From positions 1 through 43,229 of the forward strand of contig JACOZR010000018.1 in assembly GCA_016181245.1 (NCBI GenBank): DNA of 43,229 nucleotides, given 5' to 3'. The notes under the pieces are model-generated. The model had not been told where the DNA came from and searched no databases. It saw only the letters and a program-made list of their open reading frames with translations. Positions within the stretch are counted from its first letter, which is position 1, and each line of letters opens with the position of its first letter. Positions 3,777 through 18,576 of this stretch are shown one piece after another. The translations under genes were made by a program, and so were the position numbers. Source of the stretch: Candidatus Woesearchaeota archaeon (lineage in GTDB: Archaea > Nanobdellota > Nanobdellia > SCGC-AAA011-G17 > GW2011-AR20).

Positions 3777-3792
3777 GAGATTGTGAATATTT

Positions 3793-3806
3793 ACTCATAT
3801 TTATAC
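3793..3806 (-). promoter_or_regulatory. TATA box of the paralog A winged-helix gene
   Basis: On the reverse strand AGTATAAATATGAG is centred about 24 bases before the ATG at 3776, the spacing expected for leaderless transcription. The GACGTC repeat array begins about 20 bases further upstream. Confidence 0.5.
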
Positions 3807-3825
3807 TTTTTCATATTCTAGTTTA

Positions 3826-3890
3826 AACGTCTTAGACGTCTGTAGACATGTCGTAGACGTCTTAGAAGTTCGTAGACGTCTTAGAAATGT
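3826..3890. promoter_or_regulatory. Helically phased GACGTC palindrome array (operator-like)
   Basis: Seven degenerate units of 9-11 bases follow one another: AAACGTC, GACGTC (3835), GACATGTC (3845), GACGTC (3856), GAAGTTC (~3865), GACGTC (3875), GAAATGTT. They are joined by TTA or GTA. The spacing of one DNA turn puts every palindrome on the same helix face, as for cooperative binding of a dimer. The array lies immediately upstream of the TATA box of the winged-helix gene starting at 3776. Best reading: operator of that gene or of its paralog. An iteron-type origin is the alternative. Confidence 0.6.
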
Positions 3891-3967
3891 TATTTTTATC
3901 GTTGATGAGTCAATATTTTGTATTTCTTTATAGAATTTGATTATTGCTTAATTTTATTTGTTTTAAA

Positions 3968-4406
3968 CAATAAAGGCAAAAGTGAGACTCCATTTTAATG
4001 GATTTTTACATTATTTTGATGGTACTTAGGTAGTTCTAGTTTTAGAAGAGCTTATTTCTTGATTTTATCAAAAAAGTGAGAGTTTATTTGAGTTTGATCT
4101 GCTAATTTGGATGTAAAAGTCATAATTTTGCAGATTTAGCAAGCCAGAAGTGCATATAATCAGTTATTTTACCGAAAATGAGAGTTCAGATAGTCTTATT
4201 ATCGTTTTTTATGATTAAAAGTAGCAGTTTTACAAAATAAATTTGGCCATTTTAAATGAATTTTATCGGAAAATGAGTTTTAATCATTGTTGATTAATGA
4301 TTATCGAATAGAGAAATTTGTGTGTTTGAGCCACTTTGCCTTAATTTTAGCAGTTTGGAAGCTAAATTAAGCTCTTTTAACTCTTTTTTTATAGAAAGTG
4401 AGACTT
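3968..4406. repeat. Five-copy spaced motif, about one copy per 95 bp
   Basis: A motif of the form ATTTTATCnnAAAAGTGAGAGT recurs at 3968-3990, 4060-4083, 4164-4185, 4258-4280 and, inside the neighbouring gene, 4384-4406. The first four are 93, 102 and 95 bases apart and the last is 126 away. Intervening sequence is mostly dissimilar. The 516-base stretch 3777-4293 has no convincing gene, so these copies are its main content. The degenerate 22-base units and variable spacers make CRISPR unlikely. They could be spaced binding sites for the adjacent winged-helix proteins, or repeated promoter or processing signals of small transcripts. Confidence 0.5.
4283..4303. repeat. ATGATT-type words at the 3' end of paralog B
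   Basis: The stretch AATCATTGTTGATTAATGAT holds two to three copies, in both orientations, of the same word found inside and upstream of the gene. It overlaps the stop region, so the gene is bracketed by the motif. Confidence 0.4.
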
Positions 4407-4908
4407 TCTTATTATATTGTCTTGTTTTATCTATTGGGATTCCCTTGTTTATCATTGAATTTACGTAGTTTCTGATGCTTATTTCTGTTAATTTAAGGGT
4501 TTTTGAGATATCTTGGTATCTTACAGATCCTTGACCAAATTCATCTTCTAAATGGTAAATTGCCATAAAAACTGAAAATTCTCTGTCAGTTAAGCCCCTA
4601 AAGAGGCTTTCAAACTCTTTTTTTACTGTTTCCAATGATTGATTGTGATTGATGATTGTTGATGATTGTTGATGATTGTCGTTTACCCCATTATTTCCAC
4701 TGGAGTTTTTATAAAAAAAAGTTAATTTATCCTTTATTTCACTTAAAGAGTTTAATAAGTCATTTATTTTAATTTCTAATGCTTTTTTATCCTCTTTTTG
4801 CAATAAAAGTTCTTTTTTTGTTGATTCTATCTCATTTCTAAAGAATTCCATGTCTTTTCTTACGTTTTCAAAGGAATTTCTGAGTCTTTCCTCATTATAA
4901 TCGGCCAT
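4294..4908 (-). CDS. Coiled-coil plus winged-helix DNA-binding protein (paralog B)
   Basis: 204 residues, paralog of the protein at 3135-3776. Residues ~5-65 form a long charged coiled coil. An Asn/His/Gln/Ser-rich linker (NDNHQQSSTIINHNQ, ~76-90) is encoded by tandem 10-bp DNA repeats. The winged-helix part starts at ~105 (GLTDREFSVFMAIYHLE), with a recognition helix near residues 140-152 (TEISIRNYVNSMINKG). A reverse-strand TATA box (4929-4938) lies 26 bases before the ATG. Copies of the word ATGATTGTT occur upstream, inside and at the 3' end of the gene, suggesting the protein binds its own locus. Confidence 0.7.
   Translation of the reverse strand: MADYNEERLRNSFENVRKDMEFFRNEIESTKKELLLQKEDKKALEIKINDLLNSLSEIKDKLTFFYKNSSGNNGVNDNHQQSSTIINHNQSLETVKKEFESLFRGLTDREFSVFMAIYHLEDEFGQGSVRYQDISKTLKLTEISIRNYVNSMINKGIPIDKTRQYNKKVSLSIKKELKELNLASKLLKLRQSGSNTQISLFDNH
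4632..4680. repeat. Tandem 10-bp repeat GATGATTGTT inside the paralog B gene
   Basis: GATGATTGTT occurs at 4651-4660 and 4661-4670, and as GATGATTGTC at 4671-4680, with two looser copies just before. A 10-bp unit cannot keep a codon phase, and the repeat encodes a low-complexity linker in all three phases (NHQQSSTIINHNQ). That suggests the DNA itself, phased with the helix, is what is selected. The same word makes up the upstream array at 4937-4997. Confidence 0.55.
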
Positions 4909-4936
4909 TTTGATGATAAAAGCTTGAGATTTATAT

Positions 4937-4997
4937 GATTAATTGTGTTATTTAATGATTGTTTGATGATTAGCAATGATTATTAATGATTGATTAG
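4937..4997. promoter_or_regulatory. Phased AATGATT array upstream of paralog B, with TATA box beside it
   Basis: AATGATT-like words start near 4954, 4965, 4975, 4985 and 4991, about 10-11 bases apart. They lie directly upstream (reverse strand) of the TATA box at 4929-4938, which is 26 bases from the ATG at 4908. The arrangement mirrors the GACGTC array before paralog A but uses a different word. Confidence 0.5.
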
Positions 4998-5209: not shown

Positions 5210-5650
5210 CTAACCAATGTAATCTTGTGGATTTACAGATGGAGGAACTATCCTTGGCATTGGAATATGAGAAGGTAAATTTACTTCTTGTGTCAAAAGG
5301 AGCGCCTTAACATTTGATCTTCTGAATATTAAATTAATTAATTGTGCCTTAAGATCATCTGGAACATCTTTCTTTTCATCCCAATGTTCTTTAATCTCTT
5401 TTATTTTCTCTTTATCTTCTGTATAGATTATATTGCCATTCATACCTAATTCGCCTATTTGCGGCGTATACCTAATAGAGAATTCAAAAACAAACCTTAA
5501 GGCTTTTTGTTTATCTTGCAGTTTTAGCTCGTAATCTTGCATGTCTTTTATACTCACATTATATGTTACTTTGAAATCGCCTCCTTTTTTTACTTCTTCT
5601 TCCTTTTTTTCTACACTTAGTTTATCGTAGTTGAATCCCACTATTGTCAT
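5210..5650 (-). CDS. Conserved hypothetical protein, possibly SecB-like fold
   Basis: 146 residues of regular alternating hydrophobic/charged beta-strand pattern (KVTYNVSIKDM, ALRFVFEFSIRYTPQIG, NGNIIYTED). A helical segment (LKAQLINLIFRRSNVKALLL) and a proline-rich tail (LPSHIPMPRIVPP) follow. This strand-rich body with a C-terminal helix and PxP tail resembles small archaeal proteins with a SecB-like, export-chaperone-type fold, but I cannot confirm that by eye. It is divergent from argS. A TATA box on the reverse strand (about 5670-5682) is 26 bases before the ATG. Existence as a gene is confident; function is not. Confidence 0.65.
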   Translation of the reverse strand: MTIVGFNYDKLSVEKKEEEVKKGGDFKVTYNVSIKDMQDYELKLQDKQKALRFVFEFSIRYTPQIGELGMNGNIIYTEDKEKIKEIKEHWDEKKDVPDDLKAQLINLIFRRSNVKALLLTQEVNLPSHIPMPRIVPPSVNPQDYIG

Positions 5651-7475: not shown

Positions 7476-7739
7476 GTGAGCAAAATATCTTTGAAAAAAG
7501 AAGCTAGGATTAAGGAAGACATACTAAGACTTCTTTATGACAAATATCCCGAGTTTCATTATACGAGTGTTGTTTCTTATGAGACTTTAAGGAATAATGA
7601 ATTTATTTTGAGATTGTTAAATGAATTGACAAAAGAAGGGCTTGTTTCTTTTATTGATGAAAAAGGAGGGAGGGGTATAAGGAAAAAATGGTGCTTAAAG
7701 AAGGAAGTTTTTGAAAAGTATAAAGAATTACTACCCTAA
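7476..7739 (+). CDS. Small winged-helix protein
   Basis: I choose GTG at 7476 (87 residues, starting [10 protein letters not shown]) over the TTG two codons earlier, because the TATA box CTTATATATTTG (7447-7458) is centred 24 bases before the GTG. The protein is a compact helix-helix-wing domain: [37 protein letters not shown], then a glycine/basic wing ([13 protein letters not shown]). This pattern suits an archaeal winged-helix DNA- or RNA-binding protein. Its last nine bases overlap the end of the convergent lonB C-half gene. The regulated target is unknown. Confidence 0.6.
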
Positions 7740-9089
7740 CTTTTTCAAAAGATCCTTTTTTCCTGACCAGTCTAAAGCATATTTTAATACTTCTTGAATT
7801 GTGTTTACAGGGATAATTTCTATCTTTTTCTTGCTTTCTGGAGATAAAACAACATCTTTTAGGTTTGTTTGGGGGATTATAACTTTCTTTATGCCCGCTT
7901 CTATTGCTGCTTCTATTTTTGGAGTTACTCCTCCAATAGCCAGAACCTCTCCTCTAACTGAAAGAGAACCAGTCATAGCCACATCTTGTCTTACTGGAAC
8001 GTCCTTTAGTGCAGAAATAATCGCTGTTGCAACTGCTATGGAGGCTGAATCGCCTTCAACACCTGAGTCTGCTGTTTGTAGAAATTGAACAAAAATATCG
8101 TATTTTTCTTTGATATCTTCACCGAAGTTCTTCAAGATAATTGCTGAAACATTCTTTACTGCCTCTTTGGCTATTTTTCCTAATTGACCTGTAGCTATTA
8201 TTTCAGATTTTTTGCCTCCTGGTGTGATTTCTGATTCTATTGGGAGGACTATACCTGAGAAGCTTAATTCTGTGCCTATTACTGCTAGACCGTTAACTCT
8301 TCCTATTAATGTGCCTGTTGTGACTATGATTTGGTATTCCTTCTTGGTTTCTATGTATTTGTCTGCTATTTGCTGCTCTAGGGTTCTTGCCAATCTTTTT
8401 GCTTTTTCAATATGAATTGGTTCAACTAACTTTGATTTTTCTGCTATTGCGAAGTCTCCTGCTGCTCTTACTAGACCACCTAGTTCTCTTAATCTTAAAG
8501 TTAATTTTCCTGCTCTTGTTGATCTTTTTCTTGCTTCCTCTATAATTTTGATAACTGCGTTTTTTGAGAAATGTGGAATTTTCTTATCTTTCTTTACTTC
8601 TTGTGCTATGAATTGAGCGATCTTATAATGATTTTCTGGGGTATCATCCATTTCGTGATCCATATAAACTTCATAACCATAACCTCTGATTCTTGATCTT
8701 AATGCAGGATGCATATTTTTTACTGTCTCTAAGTTTCCTGAGGCAACTAGAATAAAATCGGTTGGAACTGGGTCGCTTCTTGTCATTGATCCTGAAGAGC
8801 GTTCTGATTGGCCTGTGATAGGGTATTTCTTTTCTTGCATGGCTGTTAAGAGCTCTTGCTGAGATCTTGGTGAAAGACTTGCAATTTCATCTACATAGAG
8901 AACTCCCCCAGATGATCTGTGGATAAAACCTGGAATTAAACGTTCATGAGCTGGAGTGCCTAAACCTCCTGAATTTTTGACTAGAATGTTATTAGCTAGT
9001 AAATTCCCTGATTCTGTTGTTAAATTGTACAAGTATCCTTTGTATGGGATTTTTTCTATTTTCTTGATTTTTTCTGTGGTGAGTTTCAT
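7731..9089 (-). CDS. lonB: LonB protease C-terminal half fused to an intein C-fragment (split gene)
   Basis: 452 residues. Residues 1-39 are an intein C-terminal fragment: block F is [17 protein letters not shown], block G ends ILVKN, and Ser40 is the +1 extein residue. Residues 40-452 are the rest of archaeal LonB, resuming exactly at [12 protein letters not shown]. They contain Walker B (VLYVDEI, 63-69), the arginine-finger/sensor region, and the protease domain with catalytic Ser348 (GDSAS) and Lys391 (TPKIEAA). There is no Walker A: that is in the separate gene at 10481-11497. A TATA-like element (9110-9120) lies ~26 bases before the ATG. Joined to the other extein this gives about 621 residues, the normal LonB length. 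The penultimate intein residue is Lys where His is usual. Confidence 0.93.
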
Positions 9090-9109
9090 ATTAATTGATT
9101 GGATAAATG

Positions 9110-9120
9110 AATTTAAAAGA
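9110..9120 (-). promoter_or_regulatory. TATA-like element of the IntC-lonB gene
   Basis: Reverse-strand TCTTTTAAATT is centred about 26 bases before the ATG at 9089. The C-half therefore appears to have its own leaderless promoter and not to depend on read-through from the endonuclease gene. Confidence 0.45.
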
Positions 9121-9128
9121 TTAATGCT

Positions 9129-9203
9129 TTATTCTCTAAATGGGATTTCTTTTCCTTCTACCTTCAATATCTTAAGACTTGCTTTTTTATTCCAATCATA
9201 CAT
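9129..9203 (-). CDS. 24-codon frame overlapping the endonuclease 3' end (possible former C-terminus)
   Basis: Starting at the ATG at 9203, which overlaps the endonuclease stop codon by eight bases, a frame reads MYDWNKKASLKILKVEGKEI then PFRE and stops. The overlap and the protein-like composition suggest it was once the continuation of the endonuclease or intein frame, later cut off by a frameshift. It might still be translated by coupling. Too short to identify. Confidence 0.3.
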   Translation of the reverse strand: MYDWNKKASLKILKVEGKEIPFRE

Positions 9204-10248
9204 CTTTTCTTTGCTGTTTGATGATTTCTAAGGAGTGTGGAGTTAAATTTAGTACTCTTAGTGTGGTTTCTTTATTTTTCGTATTAAATAAAACATCCCT
9301 ATATCTGTGATATTTTAAATTAATAAAGTCTTTTAATGTATTATTTAATCTTTCTTGTTTATATTTGCAGTATGTTAATCTTATCATTTGCACAAAATTG
9401 TAAAAATTATCTAGATCCTTGCTAATTTGTAACCTGAGCAAGCATTTGTCTGGATATTTCTTAGGATAACTTATTGAAATTGATCCTGTTCTTATATTTT
9501 TACTATTCAAATATTTTTGAATTTGAGATAGAAAGTTTATCTTATTTTCTCTTGAATTTATTGTTGTTTGTAAACCTATATCTAATGATGTCAATTGATT
9601 ATTATTTTTATGTATTGTAGGAGTTCCTAGCTCCCCCCCGAGAAAAGATGAAAAGAAGCTATCTGCTATTTTTTCGTTTATAAATATCCATTCTGGTATT
9701 TTAAATTCTATTTGTGATTTTCTCCCTATTGGTGCCCCTAATGCTTGAAATAATCTTATTACGTTTCTATTTGTATTTTGATAACACCATGAATGCCCAT
9801 ATCCTCCTGCTTCTATTATTCTTGAATTTGATTCTATTTCACTTCCGAAAATTGTTTTAAGATCTTCTCCGAACTCCTTTACTGCTTCTAATTCTGAACT
9901 TGATAGAAAAATTCCATTTAAATTACCAAATATTCCTCCGTCTCCAAATGTCGCCCCTAAAATCTTCGAAATTAATTGTACTCTTGAATCTTCTATTGTG
10001 AGGGGAATTAACCCTTTTTCTTTTAGCCAGTTAGCTGTTTGTATTGGGACTGGAATATGTTTCTTTGCATGCCACCATCTTGTTTTTCCGTATGACTGAT
10101 TTAGTAATTTTGCTATTTTTTTGTAACCAAAAGAAGGATTTTCTTCCTTGATTTTTATATATGTGTGATAGAGTCCGCATTGCTCTTGCTGTCTTGCATC
10201 GTATGTGTTGATCATATCTTGTTCTGTTAATACTATTTTGTTTTTCAT
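9196..10248 (-). CDS. Free-standing LAGLIDADG-type homing endonuclease inside the split lonB intein locus
   Basis: 350 residues. The N-terminal ~80 residues include a helix-turn-helix-like stretch (GYKKIAKLLNQSYGKTRWW) ending in PVPIQTANWLKEKGLIP, a module I associate with archaeal LAGLIDADG endonucleases. Motif 1 is ISKILGATFGDGG (94-105; catalytic acid Asp103) and motif 2 is FFSSFLGGELGTP (198-210; Glu206), so the two-motif monomeric form with both acids looks intact. The gene has its own start and a TATA box (10271-10280) 27 bases upstream, and is not in frame with either intein fragment. It presumably cuts intein-less lonB alleles and spreads the whole cassette. Confidence 0.85.
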   Translation of the reverse strand: MKNKIVLTEQDMINTYDARQQEQCGLYHTYIKIKEENPSFGYKKIAKLLNQSYGKTRWWHAKKHIPVPIQTANWLKEKGLIPLTIEDSRVQLISKILGATFGDGGIFGNLNGIFLSSSELEAVKEFGEDLKTIFGSEIESNSRIIEAGGYGHSWCYQNTNRNVIRLFQALGAPIGRKSQIEFKIPEWIFINEKIADSFFSSFLGGELGTPTIHKNNNQLTSLDIGLQTTINSRENKINFLSQIQKYLNSKNIRTGSISISYPKKYPDKCLLRLQISKDLDNFYNFVQMIRLTYCKYKQERLNNTLKDFINLKYHRYRDVLFNTKNKETTLRVLNLTPHSLEIIKQQRKDV

Positions 10249-10270
10249 AGTTTAATATTAGTATATGCTA

Positions 10271-10280
10271 TTATATATAA
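10271..10280 (-). promoter_or_regulatory. TATA box of the homing endonuclease gene
   Basis: TTATATATAA is centred 27 bases before the endonuclease ATG at 10248 on the reverse strand, fitting leaderless transcription independent of the lonB N-half gene. Confidence 0.55.
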
Positions 10281-10310
10281 ATGTTTGTATTTTATAGTTA
10301 AATGATAACA

Positions 10311-10320
10311 TTTAAAAATA
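10311..10320 (+). promoter_or_regulatory. TATA-like element of the small RHH gene
   Basis: TTTAAAAATA is centred 25 bases before the ATG at 10340. Together with the box at 10271-10280 it forms a divergent promoter pair between the endonuclease and the RHH gene. Confidence 0.4.
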
Positions 10321-10339
10321 ATGAAACTTTTATAAGATT

Positions 10340-10480
10340 ATGAAAAAAATAGAGAAGGTTATGGTTTATTTTCCTGAAGATCTTTCTAAGAAGTTAAAAG
10401 AGATTGCTGAGAAGAATACTAGATCTATTTCGGGGCAAGTAGTTCATTATGTAAAACAGGGAATTAAGATGGAAGATTAA
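10340..10480 (+). CDS. Ribbon-helix-helix (antitoxin-like) small DNA-binding protein, 46 residues
   Basis: The peptide starts MKKIEKVMVYFPEDLSKKLK, continues EIAEKNTRSISGQVVHYVKQ and ends GIKMED. That is a short beta-strand (KVMVYFP), helix (EDLSKKLKEIAEKN) and second helix after a Ser-rich turn (SISGQVVHYVKQGI), the ribbon-helix-helix pattern of Arc/CopG/antitoxin repressors. It lies antisense between the intein N-fragment gene and the endonuclease gene, divergent from the latter. Its TAA directly abuts the stop of the intein N-fragment (no spacer base). A partner toxin is not visible, so a repressor of the endonuclease promoter is the more natural guess. Confidence 0.65.
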   Translation: MKKIEKVMVYFPEDLSKKLKEIAEKNTRSISGQVVHYVKQGIKMED

Positions 10481-11497
10481 TTAAGATATTGTGATAACCC
10501 TATCAAATCTTGTCAATTTCTGTGCTTCTTTGTATATTATTTTTCCAAATCTTCTTACTGCCACTTTATGTTCCGGTGTTACTATTAATATTTTTCCTTT
10601 TTCTGTTATGAATTTTATTAGTTTTCCTTTGTAAAAATAACGGTTTGCCGATAATACTTCTACTTCTTCTGTATCTTTGCCTTTTTTTCCTAAAATAAAT
10701 AATTCTTTTTTGTTTGTAAAGAAGGCTTCATATTTTCCTTTCTTGATTAATTTGTTTCTATTTTTTTCAAATAAAGGATCTAATAACCCTTTTAGTTTTA
10801 TTTCTTGTAGAGTTTTAATTTCACTTTTTCCATTTTGTATTATTTTTACTACTTTTGTGTTAGGAAAAAAAGTTTGGAGCGGGTCATGAAGTACATCGCC
10901 GAATAATGCACCTGAATGAGCCCCCGTAGCATCGATGAAAGGTGCTTTCTTTGTTTTTGCATTATCAATTAAAAGCTTTGGTACTTTAAATTCTCCGTTC
11001 ATCTTGACTCTTTTATTTACATTGATGAATATAACAAAAGCTGCTAAAAATATCATCGATGAGATTAGTGAAGCTGCTGCTAGGATATCCCCGTATTGCT
11101 TTCTTACCCACCACGGGGTTATGATTGCTAAGATAATTAAAATAAAAAAGATAATATTTTGATTTTTGAAGGAAGCCATTAATTGTATTTTTGCTTTATC
11201 TACCATCGCTCTTCCCTGACCTCTTGGGACGGTTCTTATCTTGGGAACATTTTCGTCTGCATGATTGGGGTAAGAAAGAACGTCTACTAACTTTTCTTTT
11301 GGCAACAATTCTGCTAGAGCTTGGCCTAGAATACTCTTTCCGGTTCCTGGTTGGCCGATTAATAAAACATTTCTTCTTTGCTCTGCTGCCTTTTTTATGA
11401 TATTCTTGGCATTTTCCTGGCCAACTACTTGATCTATAATTCTTTCTGGAACTTTTATTTCTGATGTAGATTTAAAGTTGAGAAGATCTTTTGCCAT
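10481..11497 (-). CDS. lonB: LonB protease N-terminal half fused to an intein N-fragment (split gene)
   Basis: 338 residues. Residues 1-208 are the N-extein: Walker A GQPGTGKS (48-55), two membrane helices (about 114-130 and 139-158) placed as in archaeal membrane-bound LonB, then ATGAHSGALFGDVLHDPLQ. Residues 209-338 (130 residues) are an intein N-fragment: block A TFFPNTKVVKI, a beta-rich body, block B with the T-x-x-H signature (IVTPEHKVAV) and a stop after FDRVITIS. The first intein residue is Thr (codon ACT) where Cys or Ser is usual. Without the C-half it lacks Walker B and the protease. A TATA-like element (11516-11528) is ~25 bases upstream. Confidence 0.93.
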   Translation of the reverse strand: MAKDLLNFKSTSEIKVPERIIDQVVGQENAKNIIKKAAEQRRNVLLIGQPGTGKSILGQALAELLPKEKLVDVLSYPNHADENVPKIRTVPRGQGRAMVDKAKIQLMASFKNQNIIFFILIILAIITPWWVRKQYGDILAAASLISSMIFLAAFVIFINVNKRVKMNGEFKVPKLLIDNAKTKKAPFIDATGAHSGALFGDVLHDPLQTFFPNTKVVKIIQNGKSEIKTLQEIKLKGLLDPLFEKNRNKLIKKGKYEAFFTNKKELFILGKKGKDTEEVEVLSANRYFYKGKLIKFITEKGKILIVTPEHKVAVRRFGKIIYKEAQKLTRFDRVITIS

Positions 11498-11813: not shown

Positions 11814-11899
11814 ATTAAATCTGCTTAATTTGAACTTGTTTATAAATATTGTTGTTTTTATAAAGTATTAATTGAACCCTTAGTATTTAATTATTATTT

Positions 11900-12293
11900 G
11901 ACCCTCAGACCATCATTTCTCTTGGAACTTGTGTATTTTGATTTACTTCTTATGGAAATCTTTTAATTTGCTTATTCTTTCGTTTATGGGCTTTAAACGC
12001 TTAATTTGACTTATTTTAGATATTTTTTAATAATTTTATTTTTATTTATCAGTAATTAATAATTCATAGAATTGGTTTATATGGTCTGTATTGTTGTTTT
12101 ATTGATATTTTTTTATTTTTCTTATTATTTTTATATATAAGTTTTTCTATATTATATTATATATCTATATTATATCTATTATAAAATATATATTATATCT
12201 GATGTTACCATTATTTAGTTCTATTTGAAATGGTGGGGTTATTTATAGATTTTTTAAATTTTAATTCTTGCATAGGAAATGTAGGTGGGGGAG
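11900..12293. other. Candidate replication origin (oriC) beside cdc6
   Basis: About 530 bases without a gene (11814-12344) precede orc1/cdc6. Three origin-recognition-box-like elements share GAAATG followed by a G tract: TTTGAAATGGTGGGGTT (12224-12240), AGGAAATGTAGGTGGGGGAG (12274-12293) and, inverted, the complement of CCCTCAGACCATCATTTCTC (11902-11921). Between the inverted element and the other two lies an almost pure A/T stretch with TATATTA repeats (about 12131-12200), as expected for a duplex-unwinding element. Archaeal origins very often adjoin cdc6 and have this inward-facing ORB arrangement with terminal G strings. The core match to known ORBs is partial. Confidence 0.6.
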
Positions 12294-12316
12294 TATATAT
12301 TTTTACATAACAATAC

Positions 12317-12324
12317 TTATAAAA
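12317..12324 (+). promoter_or_regulatory. TATA box of orc1/cdc6
   Basis: TTATAAAA is centred 25 bases before the ATG at 12345. This decides the start: the upstream GTG at 12285 would put the promoter and an ORB-like site inside the coding region. Confidence 0.55.
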
Positions 12325-12344
12325 GGAATTTACTTCTAAAGATT

Positions 12345-13550
12345 ATGAAAAAGGGGCTATCTAATTTCTTTGAAGAATATCTTACTAAAAACCCTCTTTT
12401 TGTTAATAAAAAGGCTTTACAAGGGAATTTTACTCCAGATAATATTTCACATAGAGATGAACAAATTAAACAATTGGCAAGTATTCTTGCACCTGCTTTG
12501 CGAATGGAAAAACCAAGTAATGTATTTTTGTATGGAAAAACTGGAACAGGAAAAACATGTGTTACTCAATACATAACTTCACAAATTTTTGACCTTAGCA
12601 AAAAAAAGAACTTGGATTTAAAGATTTGTTATCTCAATTGCAAACTAAAAAAAGTTGCAGATACAGAGTATAGATTAATGGCTGAACTTGCTAGAAATTT
12701 TGATGTTGAAGTTCCTGCTACAGGATTACCTACAGAAGAGGTTTACAAAATTTTTGTTAAGGCTATAGATAGTAATGAAAAAAAGCTTATTTTATTAATA
12801 CTTGATGAAATAGACCAGCTCGTAAGTAGAGTAGGAGATGGTGTTTTATACAATCTTACAAGACTTAATTCTGAACTTAAGAATTGTGAATTAAGCGTAA
12901 TTGGTATAAGTAACGATTTGCTTTTTACAGATGATTTAGACCCTAGAATAAAATCTAGTTTGAGTGAAGAAGAGCTTGTATTTCCCCCTTATAATGCAAT
13001 TCAATTACAAGATATTTTGAGAGAAAGATCTGCTATAGCTTTTCGTGAAAATGTAATTGAATCAGGCGTTATTGAGAAATGTGCTGCTTATGCTGCAAGA
13101 GAACATGGAGATGCAAGAAGAGCTTTGGAACTTTTGAGAGTTTCTGGTGAACTTGCAGAAAGATCAAATAGTGAAATTATAAAAATTAAACATATAGATG
13201 AAGCAGAAGAAAAAATTGAGAAAGATACTGTGCTTGATGTTGTTAAGACTCAACCGAAACAAAGTCAAATTGCCCTATATTCTATTTTAAAAGTTTGCAC
13301 CAATGAAAATCATATCTTTACAGGAGATGTTTATGATTATTATAAAGATATTTGTAGACAGGTTGGTGCAAAATCATTAACACAAAGAAGAATTAGTGAT
13401 ATTATAGCAGAGTTAGACATGTTTGGGATTATACATGCCCGTGTTGTTAGTAAAGGTAGATATGGTAGAACAAAAGAGATTACCTTAGGTATTCCGTTAT
13501 CAACTCTTCCAAAATTAGAGGAAACATTGAAGGAGGGTCTTGGTCTTTAG
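12345..13550 (+). CDS. cdc6: Orc1/Cdc6 origin recognition and helicase-loading ATPase
   Basis: From the ATG at 12345 the protein has 401 residues, typical for archaeal Orc1/Cdc6. Walker A is GKTGTGKT (64-71), Walker B ILDEIDQL (about 152-159), and the sensor-2 region reads EHGDARRALELLR. A C-terminal winged helix (about 320-400, with QRRISDIIAELDMFGII) binds origin boxes. It binds oriC and loads MCM. It stands next to an origin candidate and is followed with essentially no gap by both PolD subunits, so initiation and elongation genes are transcribed together. The GTG at 12285 is an alternative start that I reject. Confidence 0.95.
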   Translation: MKKGLSNFFEEYLTKNPLFVNKKALQGNFTPDNISHRDEQIKQLASILAPALRMEKPSNVFLYGKTGTGKTCVTQYITSQIFDLSKKKNLDLKICYLNCKLKKVADTEYRLMAELARNFDVEVPATGLPTEEVYKIFVKAIDSNEKKLILLILDEIDQLVSRVGDGVLYNLTRLNSELKNCELSVIGISNDLLFTDDLDPRIKSSLSEEELVFPPYNAIQLQDILRERSAIAFRENVIESGVIEKCAAYAAREHGDARRALELLRVSGELAERSNSEIIKIKHIDEAEEKIEKDTVLDVVKTQPKQSQIALYSILKVCTNENHIFTGDVYDYYKDICRQVGAKSLTQRRISDIIAELDMFGIIHARVVSKGRYGRTKEITLGIPLSTLPKLEETLKEGLGL

Positions 13551-13551
13551 T

Positions 13552-15066
13552 ATGCTAAGCGCAAAAGATTATCAAAAAACTGTTTATGATTTTTTTTTAT
13601 CTAAAGGTTTTTTAGTTAGTCCTAGTTTTCTTCAATGTATCTCTGAAGATTTTGATATTGATGAGTTTTATCTAAAACTGAAAAGATATACCCCTGTTCC
13701 ATTTGTTCTTACGGATGAGCTTTTTTTAAAAATAAATGAAGAAAAAAAAGAGTTTACAGAAGAGAAAAAACAAGAAGTTGAAATAATTTCCTTTGATATT
13801 TCTAGAGAACCCAGGGTAGTTGTTGTCAAGAATTATACTGAAAAAAATAAGAAAAAAGAGGTCATGGATTTTGTAAATTATTACAGGGCAAGATATAATG
13901 CCATAAAAAACATTCTTATTAATAGACAAGAACTACAAAATGCGGTTTCAATAAATAGGATTCTTCAAAGAACAGAAAAAGATTTTGTGGCTTTAATAGG
14001 GATTGTGAAAGAGAAGAAAATAAGTAAAAATGGAAATATCATTCTTGTACTTGAAGATCTTACCGGAACCATATCTGTTGTGATTAATAAAAACAAACAG
14101 GAATTTTTTTCTTTGTCACAGGACATACTTCTAGATGAGATAATCGGAGTTTCTGGTGTAAATAGTGATAAAGTTGTGTTTGCAAATGAAATAATTCTTC
14201 CAGAGATACCTATAAATAATGAGCTTAAGAAATCTGATGTTGAGGAATATGTTGTTTTTACGTCTGATTTACATGTTGGCAGTAAAATGTTTTTTGAAAC
14301 TAATTTTTTAAAATTCATTTCCTGGATTAATGGGGAATATGGGAGTGATGAGCATAAAACTTTAGCAAAGAAAGTTAAATACCTGTTCATAGGGGGGGAT
14401 CTTGTTGAAGGTGTAGGAATCTATCCTGGGCAAGAAGGGGATCTTGTTATTAAAGATGTTTATGAACAATATTCTAAGCTTACAGACTACATTTCAAAAA
14501 TAAGAAAAGATTTACCAATAATTGTAATAGGCGGGAATCATGATGCTCTTAGACTGAGTGAACCACAACCTCCGATTGATCCTAAAATGGCACCTTCTCT
14601 TTACGAGCTCAAAAATATAACTTTTGTTACTAATCCTTCTGTTGTAAATATTGGTTCTACTGAACTTTTTAGCGGCTTCAATGTTCTCCTTTATCATGGA
14701 GGAAGCTTTCCATATCTTTCTGAAAATGTGGATAGTATAAGGAGAAATGGAAGACTCAACAGACCAGATTTGATTATGAAATACTTATTACAAAGAAGAC
14801 ATCTTTCAGTTAGTCACACATCTACTTTGTATGTGCCTGGTGACGAAGACTTCTTGGTTATAGATAAGGTGCCAGATTTTTTTATTAGTGGGCATATTCA
14901 CAAAACTATTTTGAATAGTTACAGGAATGTTACCCTTGCTGCTTGCGGCTGTTGGACTGGGCAAACCGATGATCAGGCTAGAAGAGGTATTGTTCCTGAT
15001 CCAAACAGAATTATCCTTGTTAATCTGCAAACAAGAGAGCCAAAAATTTTGAACTTTGAGGAATAA
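13552..15066 (+). CDS. polB: DNA polymerase D small subunit (DP1; proofreading exonuclease)
   Basis: 504 residues from the ATG at 13552, one base after the cdc6 stop; GGAGG at 13532-13536 could also serve a TTG at 13540. An OB-fold (about residues 146-216, FVALIGIVKEKKIS to IIGVSGV) precedes a calcineurin-like phosphoesterase domain. Its motifs are SDLHVGS (238-244), GGDLVEG (281-287), GGNHDALR (327-334), LLYHGGS (379-385) and GHIHKT (447-452). These coordinate the two metals of the Mre11-like 3'-5' exonuclease. DP1 pairs with DP2, encoded immediately downstream (stop TAA then ATG), to form the archaeal replicative polymerase D. Confidence 0.96.
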   Translation: MLSAKDYQKTVYDFFLSKGFLVSPSFLQCISEDFDIDEFYLKLKRYTPVPFVLTDELFLKINEEKKEFTEEKKQEVEIISFDISREPRVVVVKNYTEKNKKKEVMDFVNYYRARYNAIKNILINRQELQNAVSINRILQRTEKDFVALIGIVKEKKISKNGNIILVLEDLTGTISVVINKNKQEFFSLSQDILLDEIIGVSGVNSDKVVFANEIILPEIPINNELKKSDVEEYVVFTSDLHVGSKMFFETNFLKFISWINGEYGSDEHKTLAKKVKYLFIGGDLVEGVGIYPGQEGDLVIKDVYEQYSKLTDYISKIRKDLPIIVIGGNHDALRLSEPQPPIDPKMAPSLYELKNITFVTNPSVVNIGSTELFSGFNVLLYHGGSFPYLSENVDSIRRNGRLNRPDLIMKYLLQRRHLSVSHTSTLYVPGDEDFLVIDKVPDFFISGHIHKTILNSYRNVTLAACGCWTGQTDDQARRGIVPDPNRIILVNLQTREPKILNFEE

Positions 15067-18000
15067 ATGAAAGAATACCACAAATCTTTACAACTTGAAC
15101 TAAACAAAACGTATGATGTAGCTGTGAAAGCTAGAAGTAAATGCCTTGATCCTAGTCCCTATGTAGAAATTCCCGTAGCAAAAAATATGGCCGAAAGAGT
15201 AGAAGGTTTGATCAGTGTTGCAGCGCCAGAAATTAGAGGTTGTGGTGTGGTAGAACGTATTCAGGAACTTGAAAAAAAATATGGGAAGCTAAATTGGAGA
15301 GTTGCTTTGCAAGTTTCTGAGGAAGTAGCGCAAGAAACCTTTTGTAAGTTTACTGATAAGAAAAAAGCTATGGAAGTAGCAATACGTGTTGGAATAGCTT
15401 ATGTTACTAATGGAGTTGTTTCTAGTCCTTTAGAAGGATTTACAGAGCTAAAGATTAAGAAACGAAGGGATGGAAAAGAATATTTTGCTTTGTATTTTTC
15501 TGGGCCCATTAGAAGTGCCGGCGGAACTGGTGCTAGTGTGTCTGTAATTATCGGAGATTATGTTCGAAAGAAAATGGGATACAGCGAGTATGATCCTACT
15601 GAGGAGGAAGTTAAGAGAATGAATACTGAGCTTTATGATTATCATGAAAAAGTAACTAACTTGCAATACCTGCCAAGTGAAGAAGAACTAGAATTTATGG
15701 TTAGGCACCTTACAGTGCAAATAGATGGAGATCCCAGCGAGAAATATGATGTTAGCAACTATAAGGATCTTGACAGGATAGAGACAAATAAAATAAGAAA
15801 TGGACCTTGCCTTGTTTTGGGGGAGGGTTTATGCCAAAAAGCTCCAAAGTTATGGAAACAGATAGACAAATGGGGTAATGATTTTGATCTTGTACATTGG
15901 AGATTCTTGGAAGAATTTTTAAATTTACAGAAAAAAATTAAATCTAAAGGAGTTATTAAATCAGAAAATAAAGATAATCTGAAGATTAAACCCGATTTTA
16001 CATTTATCAAGGATTTGGTTGCAGGCAGGCCTGTACTTACTCACCCTTTAAGGGTTGGTGGTTTTAGGTTACGTTATGGTAGGGCAAGAAATACTGGGTT
16101 AAGTTCTAATGCAATTCATCCTGCTACTATGTACGTTACTAATAACTTTATTGCAATTGGTACGCAAATCAAAATGGAGAGACCTGGAAAAGCTAGTGCA
16201 CTCAGTATTTGCGATACTATTGAAGGACCTATTGTCAAACTGAAAAATCAAAGTGTTCTATTATTGAATAATGTAGAAGATGCAAAGCATTATGCTCCAG
16301 AAGTCGAAGAGATTATATTTTTGGGAGATATTCTGGTAAGCTATGGCGACTTTTTTAACAGAGCGCATCCTCTTGTTCCTTGCGGATATAATGAAGAATG
16401 GTGGCTCAGAGAACTAGAAGACAAAATTGAAAAAAAATTTGATAACGATATAGATAAACTTGCTTCTTCTATGGGGGTAGATAAATCAATATTAAAAAAT
16501 ATTTTTTTTGAACCTTCTAGTATTTCATTTGATAATTCTGTTAAGCTTTCTAGATTATTGGATATACCCCTTGCTCCAAGATTTACATACCATTGGGCGG
16601 ATATAAATCATGAACAATTTTTAAGTTTACTTTCCTGGTTAAGCGAAAGAAGGATTGAAAATGAAAATATAGTTCTTCCTTTTATATATGATTTGAATTC
16701 AGCATTATCTGATGCAGATCCAAAACGCATACTTGAACTTTTAGGTGTTCCTCACCTTGTTGCAGGCAAGAATCATGTAATCATAAGTGGCGAAGATGCG
16801 CAAGCTTTTTCTTTTTCATTGAATGAATTTATTATACCTCTTGAGGATATCAAAGATGCAAAAAATGGACTTGATATAGTTAACAAGATATGCCCTGTTA
16901 CCATAAGAGACAAATCCGGAACATTTATTGGAGCTAGAATGGGCAGACCTGAAAAAGCTAAAATAAGAAAGCTTACTGGTAGTCCACACTGTCTTTTTCC
17001 TATAGGGGAACAAGGAGGAAGGATGCGTTCTTTTCAAAGTGCAATTGAAAAAGGATATGTTAAAGGAGATTTTCCTCTTTACAAATGTTTGAATTGCAAT
17101 ATTGATTCTATATTTTCTATTTGTATAAAATGTAATTCAAAAACTGAGAAGTTTTATTCTTGTCAAGCATGTGCCAAAGATGTAACTACATGTACCCATA
17201 AAGAAGTAAGGAAGAATTACAAATACAGAGAAATTCCTATTAGAGACTATATGGATTATGCCCAGAATAATCTTAATCTAAAAGGATTACCGGATCTTAT
17301 AAAGGGTGTTAGAGGATTAAGTAGTAAAGATCATATACCAGAAAATCTTATGAAAGGCATATTAAGAGCAGTAAATGAAGTTTATGTTAACAAAGATGGT
17401 ACTGTGAGATATGATGCAACTGAACTTACAATTACACACTTTAGACCTTTTGAAATAGGCGTTACTATAGAAAAACTCAAGTCTCTTGGTTATTTAACAG
17501 ATACCTACGGGAATCCATTGGAAGAGGATACACAGATAGTTGAACTCAAACCACAAGATGTAATTATTCCATCTTGTAAAGACTCTCTAGATGAAGGAGG
17601 AGATGATATACTTCTAAGGTCTAGCAAATTCATAGATGATTTGTTAAAACATATGTATGGAATGGATACTTTTTATAATGCTGATCAAAGACAAGACCTA
17701 GTGGGACATTTGGTTTTGTCTATAGCCCCACACATTTCTGCAGGAATTGTCTGTAGAATAGTTGGTTTTAGTAATACCCAGGGATTTTATGCTCATCCGA
17801 TGCTTCATTGTGCAGTTAGAAGAGATGCGGATGGTGATGAAATTGCATTTACTTTACTTTTAGATGCTTTGCTTAACTTTTCTAGAGCATATTTACCTGC
17901 TCATAGGGGGGCTACACAAGATGCACCTTTAGTTCTTAGTTCTACACTTATACCTAGCGAGATTGATGATATGGCTTTCGATGTTGATATTGCACCTAAA

Positions 18001-18576
18001 TACCCCTTAAAACTTTATGAAGCAGCATTAGAATATAAATTTCCATGGGAAGTTGAAGTTGAACAATTAAGACATAGGCTTGGTAAAGAGGATGAGCAAT
18101 ATGGTTGGAAGTTTACTCATGATACAAGTAATATTAATGATGGAGTTGTCTGTAGTGCATATAAATCTATACCAGATATGCAAAAAAAAGTTTTTGGGCA
18201 ATTAGAGATAGCAGAAAAGATAAGGGCAGTTGATGAAGTTGATGTAGCAAGACTGGTAATTGACAGACATTTTATTAGAGACATAAGAGGGAACTTAAGG
18301 AAGTTTTCTACACAAGAATTTAGATGTGTTAGTTGTAATGAAAAATATAGAAGACCACCTTTAGCAGGCTATTGCTTAAAATGTAAAGGCAAACTTCTTT
18401 TTACTGTTTCTGAGGGAAGTGTTATTAAATACCTAGAACCAAGCATTAGCTTAGCTGAAAAATATGAACTACCAAAATATCTGAGACAAACACTTGAACT
18501 AACTAAGATGCGTATTGAAAGCGTTTTTGGCAAAGATCCTGAAAAACAAGAAGGACTTGGAAGATGGTTTGGATAA
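15067..18576 (+). CDS. polC: DNA polymerase D large subunit (DP2; polymerase catalytic subunit)
   Basis: 1169 residues, normal DP2 length with no intein. The catalytic core shows RRDADGDEIAF (residues 918-928) with the two acidic ligands Asp922 and Asp924, preceded by NADQRQDLVGHLVLSIAPH and followed by PAHRGATQDAPLV. Two zinc-binding regions are visible: a CxxC-rich one near residue 675 (KCLNCNIDS, ICIKCNS, SCQAC) and a C-terminal one near 1085 (CVSCNEKYRRPPLAGYCLKC). The fold is RNA-polymerase-like double-psi barrel. The gene starts directly after the DP1 stop, completing a cdc6-DP1-DP2 series downstream of the putative origin. Confidence 0.97.
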   Translation: MKEYHKSLQLELNKTYDVAVKARSKCLDPSPYVEIPVAKNMAERVEGLISVAAPEIRGCGVVERIQELEKKYGKLNWRVALQVSEEVAQETFCKFTDKKKAMEVAIRVGIAYVTNGVVSSPLEGFTELKIKKRRDGKEYFALYFSGPIRSAGGTGASVSVIIGDYVRKKMGYSEYDPTEEEVKRMNTELYDYHEKVTNLQYLPSEEELEFMVRHLTVQIDGDPSEKYDVSNYKDLDRIETNKIRNGPCLVLGEGLCQKAPKLWKQIDKWGNDFDLVHWRFLEEFLNLQKKIKSKGVIKSENKDNLKIKPDFTFIKDLVAGRPVLTHPLRVGGFRLRYGRARNTGLSSNAIHPATMYVTNNFIAIGTQIKMERPGKASALSICDTIEGPIVKLKNQSVLLLNNVEDAKHYAPEVEEIIFLGDILVSYGDFFNRAHPLVPCGYNEEWWLRELEDKIEKKFDNDIDKLASSMGVDKSILKNIFFEPSSISFDNSVKLSRLLDIPLAPRFTYHWADINHEQFLSLLSWLSERRIENENIVLPFIYDLNSALSDADPKRILELLGVPHLVAGKNHVIISGEDAQAFSFSLNEFIIPLEDIKDAKNGLDIVNKICPVTIRDKSGTFIGARMGRPEKAKIRKLTGSPHCLFPIGEQGGRMRSFQSAIEKGYVKGDFPLYKCLNCNIDSIFSICIKCNSKTEKFYSCQACAKDVTTCTHKEVRKNYKYREIPIRDYMDYAQNNLNLKGLPDLIKGVRGLSSKDHIPENLMKGILRAVNEVYVNKDGTVRYDATELTITHFRPFEIGVTIEKLKSLGYLTDTYGNPLEEDTQIVELKPQDVIIPSCKDSLDEGGDDILLRSSKFIDDLLKHMYGMDTFYNADQRQDLVGHLVLSIAPHISAGIVCRIVGFSNTQGFYAHPMLHCAVRRDADGDEIAFTLLLDALLNFSRAYLPAHRGATQDAPLVLSSTLIPSEIDDMAFDVDIAPKYPLKLYEAALEYKFPWEVEVEQLRHRLGKEDEQYGWKFTHDTSNINDGVVCSAYKSIPDMQKKVFGQLEIAEKIRAVDEVDVARLVIDRHFIRDIRGNLRKFSTQEFRCVSCNEKYRRPPLAGYCLKCKGKLLFTVSEGSVIKYLEPSISLAEKYELPKYLRQTLELTKMRIESVFGKDPEKQEGLGRWFG

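Follow-up and report, generated by a model that had tools for sequence, protein, structure and literature searches.

The stretch of DNA analysed here (the window, 43,229 nucleotides, from a Candidatus Woesearchaeota genome of 0.9 Mb in 51 contigs) carries two adjacent genes on the minus strand, which we refer to as P1 and P2. P1 (3135–3776) encodes a 213-residue protein with a coiled coil and a winged helix, and P2 (4294–4908) encodes a 204-residue protein made up of a coiled coil (residues 2–67), a disordered linker (69–87) and a winged helix (92–196). Residues 69–87 are the sole internal stretch of P2 predicted to be disordered, and connect a helix of 66 residues to the winged helix. AlphaFold2 models (pLDDT 83.5 for P2 and 71.1 for P1) support the coiled-coil/winged-helix architecture first proposed for both genes from their translations, and the winged helices of the two proteins are paralogous (hhalign, 97.3%, E = 2e-11). 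Neither protein matched a Pfam or PDB family above cut-off or showed sequence homology to a known initiator family. Profile searches of the PDB returned generic coiled-coil and helix-turn-helix matches only, and a fold search returned generic winged helices of the MarR, DnaD and CodY types, with DnaD included in the top match of P2. Both genes are single-copy in the genome. P2 is present in 11 of the 13 genomes of the family and in 89 of the 103 of the order, and P1 adjoins it in nearly all P2-bearing genomes of the order. All genomes compared are draft or sampled assemblies, and the start codons of ORFs were inferred.

Each gene is preceded by a repeat array on the minus strand. The P1 array (3826–3890), composed of palindromic GACGTC-type half-sites with an average phase of ~10 bp, is located directly upstream of a TATA-like box assigned by sequence (3797–3806, minus strand), and the P2 promoter array (4937–4997), composed of AATCAT/AATGATT words, is located directly upstream of a second such box (4926–4936, minus strand), confirming the arrangement from which this analysis began. 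Autocorrelation of the P1 array peaked at lags 9, 19, 21 and 30 (z 3.5–5.8) and that of the P2 promoter array at lags 31 and 10 (z 3.9 and 2.3); the one-turn phasing that had been proposed therefore stands as an average of ~10 bp but is not exact. Three-copy AATCAT arrays and GACGTC pairs were not found outside the P2/P1 locus in the 0.9-Mb genome. The pairing of gene and array, which was sought in relatives, holds across them. In the window genome (G000) and in G003, G008, G009 and G004, the sequence of the GACGTC array preceding P1 is almost unchanged, although the P1 protein of G004 is only ~33% identical. With paralogous winged helices and distinct arrays, the original prediction of two related regulators with diverged operator words is borne out.

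What the original prediction overlooked is that the word of the P2 promoter array also occurs inside the P2 gene. A linker array of AATCATCAAC repeats (4630–4684, minus strand; 10-bp period, z 7.0) is in frame and encodes the disordered linker; together with the P2 promoter array, this region (about 4618–4690) gives the most periodic 62-bp stretches in the window. In the P2 coding strand the linker array directly follows an origin recognition box (ORB; CTCCAGTGGAAATAATGGGGT, 4685–4705, minus strand), which matches the published common archaeal ORB consensus, TCCA[CG]T[TG]GAAA[TC][GA]AAGGGGT (PMC4164010), with 0–2 mismatches in 62 of 87 P2 genes. Allowing up to 3 mismatches, the ORB was detected in 87 of 88 P2 ORFs of the order, and a sample of 35 full-length P2 genes of a second order contained it without exception. 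When the ORB pattern was scanned genome-wide, 83 of 103 genomes were positive, mostly with a single copy at P2, and the reversed pattern used as a control gave no match in the 103 genomes. Based on the consensus match, we infer that Orc1/Cdc6 binds the P2 ORB.

The P2 ORB is read in two frames, encoding S-x-G-N-x-G-V in 71 genes and V-P-Q-E-x-K-G-S in 12, and its codons are under near-total synonymous constraint: TCC is used for 70 of 71 serines, GGA in 69 of 69 cases and GGG in 69 of 70, whereas in the rest of these P2 genes they account for 12–28% of the codons for the respective amino acid. An additional copy of the ORB and array is found in the non-coding P2 promoter of five genomes. Since the box occupies two frames, has frozen codons and recurs in non-coding DNA, it is, on this comparison of sequences, conserved as DNA and not as peptide, and represents a DNA constraint on coding sequence strong enough for two different reading frames to accommodate it. 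In the P2 linkers of L258, L271, L250, L274 and L139 the ORB or an ORB-like site is present twice in the same direction, which suggests that ORB and array are duplicated together as one module.

The array words vary by lineage (AATCATCAAC, AAGCAAGC, CATTCATTCAAC, CGACAGAC, CACTCACTCAC and AACAAACA), and the promoter and linker words change together. The two arrays of a genome matched on the same strand and shared 19.1 7-mers versus 3.9 for mixed pairs (87 genes), the maximum of 2000 permutations being 6.9. Of all columns, residue 147 in the predicted recognition helix of P2 (residues 142–154), an asparagine in the P2 of the window, is the most informative about the array word by entropy-normalised mutual information. 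Threonine at this position occurs with TTCA/TGCA only (16 of 16), alanine with AGCA (6 of 6 having four or more copies), aspartate with GACA (42 of 46 having three or more copies) and glycine or asparagine with ATCA/AACA, while serine takes in all CTCA/CGCA cases. Residue 144 tracks the second base of the word, with cysteine accompanying T or G and serine or threonine mostly accompanying A. On a tree built without the co-varying columns, and with a word threshold of four copies, changes of word and residue largely coincided (6 and 5, 7 jointly, for threonine; 5 and 4, 5 jointly, for alanine), and no independent contrast on a supported branch ran counter to the prediction, although their number was too low for the sign test to reach significance. 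The second order, retrieved after the word-residue pattern had been noticed, has R-D-Y together with GACA-type words almost throughout, with one clear exception (L258); the pairing of aspartate with GACA is thus found there as the code predicts. As residues 147 and 144 track the word, and the promoter and linker words co-vary, P2 in all likelihood binds its own array, and for P2 the proposed divergence in operator specificity is borne out by a recognition helix that changes with its word.

Arrays that abut TATA boxes, promoter and linker words that co-vary, and the lack of other array targets in the genome all favour autoregulation only, whereby P2 and P1 would be self-limiting repressors or activators, the promoter and intragenic arrays would be operators looped via the coiled coil, and Orc1 at the ORB would tie P2 expression to the cell cycle. 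We consider this account unlikely in view of how the arrays are placed. None of the 35 P2 promoters of the second order carries the word, yet the ORB and linker array are kept in all 35; thus, as far as sequence conservation can tell, the intragenic ORB-array is the invariant core and the promoter array is an addition. P1 occurs in different arrangements. Type A P1 genes, including that of the window, are in tandem with P2, and their array is part of the promoter that separates the two genes, while type B genes are convergent and have a GTTC/GAAC array inside their own coding linker and none in the promoter. The median distance from the ORB to the P1 array is nonetheless 743 bp for type A and 755 bp for type B, such that array positions follow the ORB and not the promoters. 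P1 is expected to bind its own palindromic array at ~750 bp from the ORB. The locus also contains a directional 13-mer with the consensus AACTCTCAYTTTT, which is ~100-fold enriched there, lies on one strand in almost every case and is hardly found elsewhere in the genome. In the window, copies are found on the minus strand at 3978–3990 (GAGTCTCACTTTT), 4072–4084 (AACTCTCACTTTT, with no other exact copy genome-wide), 4174–4186 (AACTCTCATTTTC) and, inside the P2 coding sequence, 4394–4406 (AAGTCTCACTTTC). The fixed spacing between ORB and P1 array, the 13-mer and the lack of the word in P2 promoters of the second order together weigh against a set of operators alone and favour a nucleoprotein site that acts in cis.

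Two further groups of genes were observed. Family f11 (L134–L137) has a P1 with an enlarged GTTC/GAAC coding array; no P2 or matching ORB was detected in this family, and the 13-mer is kept in two genomes. A third, more distant group consists of P2-like genes without the ORB and was kept as an outgroup. TTCCCA/TCCCA repeats are present in the promoters of P1-like genes beside such ORB-less P2-like genes (L278, L279 and L282), which suggests that arrays of the P1 type predate the P2 ORB.

The P2/P1 pair is located 5–10 kb from orc1/cdc6-DP1-DP2, whereas in G077 P2 and the Cdc6-PRC gap appear to be widely separated. In the window, Orc1/Cdc6 (12285–13550, plus strand) is followed by DP1 (13540–15066) and DP2 (15067–18576), and the gene order across the order is DP2-DP1-Orc1/Cdc6, PRC, LonB, a small ORF, ArgRS, the gene at 5210, P2, P1 and a tyrosine recombinase. 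This neighbourhood recurs in part in the second order. The original prediction had envisaged the regulators as a filament or multimer along the DNA, possibly in a partition, copy-control or silencing system of an integrated element, and the tyrosine recombinase gene that is often nearby would fit a plasmid or virus remnant. However, P2 and P1 are single-copy and syntenic beside replication genes in most genomes of the order and into the second, where a mobile element would be marked by patchy presence, element genes and no core synteny; in a limited test, two ORB-plus-array patterns gave no match in viral contigs. The recurrent neighbourhood therefore places P2/P1 in the core genome, close to the origin, and not in an integrated element, which we regard as a highly improbable source.

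Several neighbours have features of their own. The recombinase (1604–2458) has a C-terminal zinc ribbon, and many genomes of the order have a relative of it close to P1. The 146-residue gene at 5210–5650 has no Pfam match and travels with P2 across the order and the second order. LonB (7731–11497) is divided into three ORFs, an N-part (10481–11497), a free-standing ORF (9196–10248) and a C-part (7731–9089) that begins with a weak match to Intein_splicing. Elsewhere in the family LonB is a single protein of ~620 residues, and the three-ORF arrangement is seen again in several other genomes. The arrangement resembles a split intein whose halves are separated by an independent gene, possibly for a homing endonuclease.

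An ORB inside P2 points first to replication control, ahead of the partition or copy-control function that had been guessed. P2 and P1 could still be ParB/SegB-like, loading onto origin-proximal arrays to form a centromere-like partition site, coupled to Orc1 through the ORB. Like ParB/parS and SegAB, the locus is origin-proximal and has multiple arrays with cognate, locally encoded binders, the coiled coils would be multimeric, and no regulon is apparent. Unlike those systems, it has no ParA/SegA-type ATPase gene among the scanned window ORFs or the recurrent neighbours, and an Orc1 box is part of the site, whereas an ORB is not a defining part of the known partition sites. A partition role is thus distinctly improbable.

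A candidate for the canonical oriC is the intergenic region between Cdc6 and PRC (11868–12284; 80% AT). In the window this gap contains one weak ORB-like site only (12219–12239, plus strand), and in many genomes the AT-rich gap holds weaker, often divergent ORB-like pairs. The best of these sites has 2–5 mismatches, and the P2 ORB is nearer to the consensus. At P2, the ORBs are single or direct, with no inverted ORBs flanking an AT-rich DUE as in a canonical oriC; Sulfolobus oriC1 has an inverted ORB-DUE-ORB pair in which both ORBs are required for firing (PMC12141716). GC skew in two near-complete genomes was driven by gene strand and too noisy to place the origin. The Cdc6-PRC gap may be the firing origin. 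Given its weaker divergent pairs and the need for inverted ORBs in Sulfolobus, the P2 site may fire as an additional origin, assist oriC as a loading or helper element, or serve for titration or resetting. In the last case, an ORB beside oriC would remove or reset Orc1 after firing, in the manner of datA/DARS, with P2 and P1 as accessories. Consistent with this, the P2 ORB is the better match to the consensus and, being near oriC, would be duplicated early, and there are precedents in a haloarchaeal downstream ORB cluster (PMC4010727) and in near-origin titration in E. coli (PMC12371093). A single ORB would nevertheless be a weak sink, and titration does not account for why the box sits so strictly beside an array co-evolving with P2, which makes this reading somewhat unlikely.

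We therefore lean, with modest confidence, towards the P2-P1 region being an origin-proximal cis site for Orc1/Cdc6, P2 and P1, with a role in replication initiation or its control; this is the most likely of the readings, and the confidences placed in its rivals partly overlap with its own. According to this model, Orc1 would bind the ORB within P2, and P2, as a coiled-coil multimer with winged-helix heads, would bind the tandem array beside the ORB inside its own gene. P1 would bind its palindromic array ~750 bp away, so that the three proteins would assemble on a site overlapping the genes of two of them, and this complex would control or carry out initiation. In this order P2 would also bind the promoter copy of the array, which would probably make it autoregulatory.

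Initiators that bind within their own genes are known from other systems: lambda O is an initiator with origin iterons in the middle of its gene. RepA_N plasmid initiators likewise have iterons, and a DnaD-like N-terminal domain (PMC7145576). P2 resembles both as an initiator-like winged-helix protein predicted to bind mid-gene repeats, its linker arrays co-varying with its recognition helix. It differs in that the locus is chromosomal and core, includes an Orc1 box, two paralogues and species-variable words, and has no detected sequence homology to either. The analogy points to a site that would work like lambda O/ori, or like iteron initiators with an origin in the gene, without belonging to those families. 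With the archaeal origins Sulfolobus oriC1 and Pyrococcus oriC, the P2 site shares the ORB consensus and nearness to orc1/cdc6, and in Sulfolobus a non-Orc1 protein, UBP, works beside the ORBs at the ucm (PMC12141716). The P2 ORB, in contrast, is single, lies within a coding sequence some kilobases away from cdc6, and precedes an array cognate to the protein which that gene encodes. At Sulfolobus oriC3, the winged-helix non-Orc protein WhiP is tied to a chromosomal origin (PMC4010727). However, oriC3 lacks an ORB, and P2 and P1 each have one winged helix and a coiled coil.

A stronger form of this model, which we put forward tentatively as a possibility less probable than the general one, is an active replicator of a cellular chromosome in protein-coding DNA. 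Orc1 and a co-initiator, P2, would load at an ORB-iteron module in the P2 gene, and the repeated joint rewriting of helix and iterons across two orders would constitute a readable natural code for winged-helix/DNA recognition. No report of such a locus was found in a literature search that took in few subscription journals, and to our knowledge replication initiation in DPANN archaea is essentially unstudied. The ~120 natural P2/array pairs provide a data set on how winged-helix specificity changes when promoter and gene-body sites change with it, and the locus provides a concrete, order-wide candidate for a partner of Orc1, with exact sites and a testable architecture.
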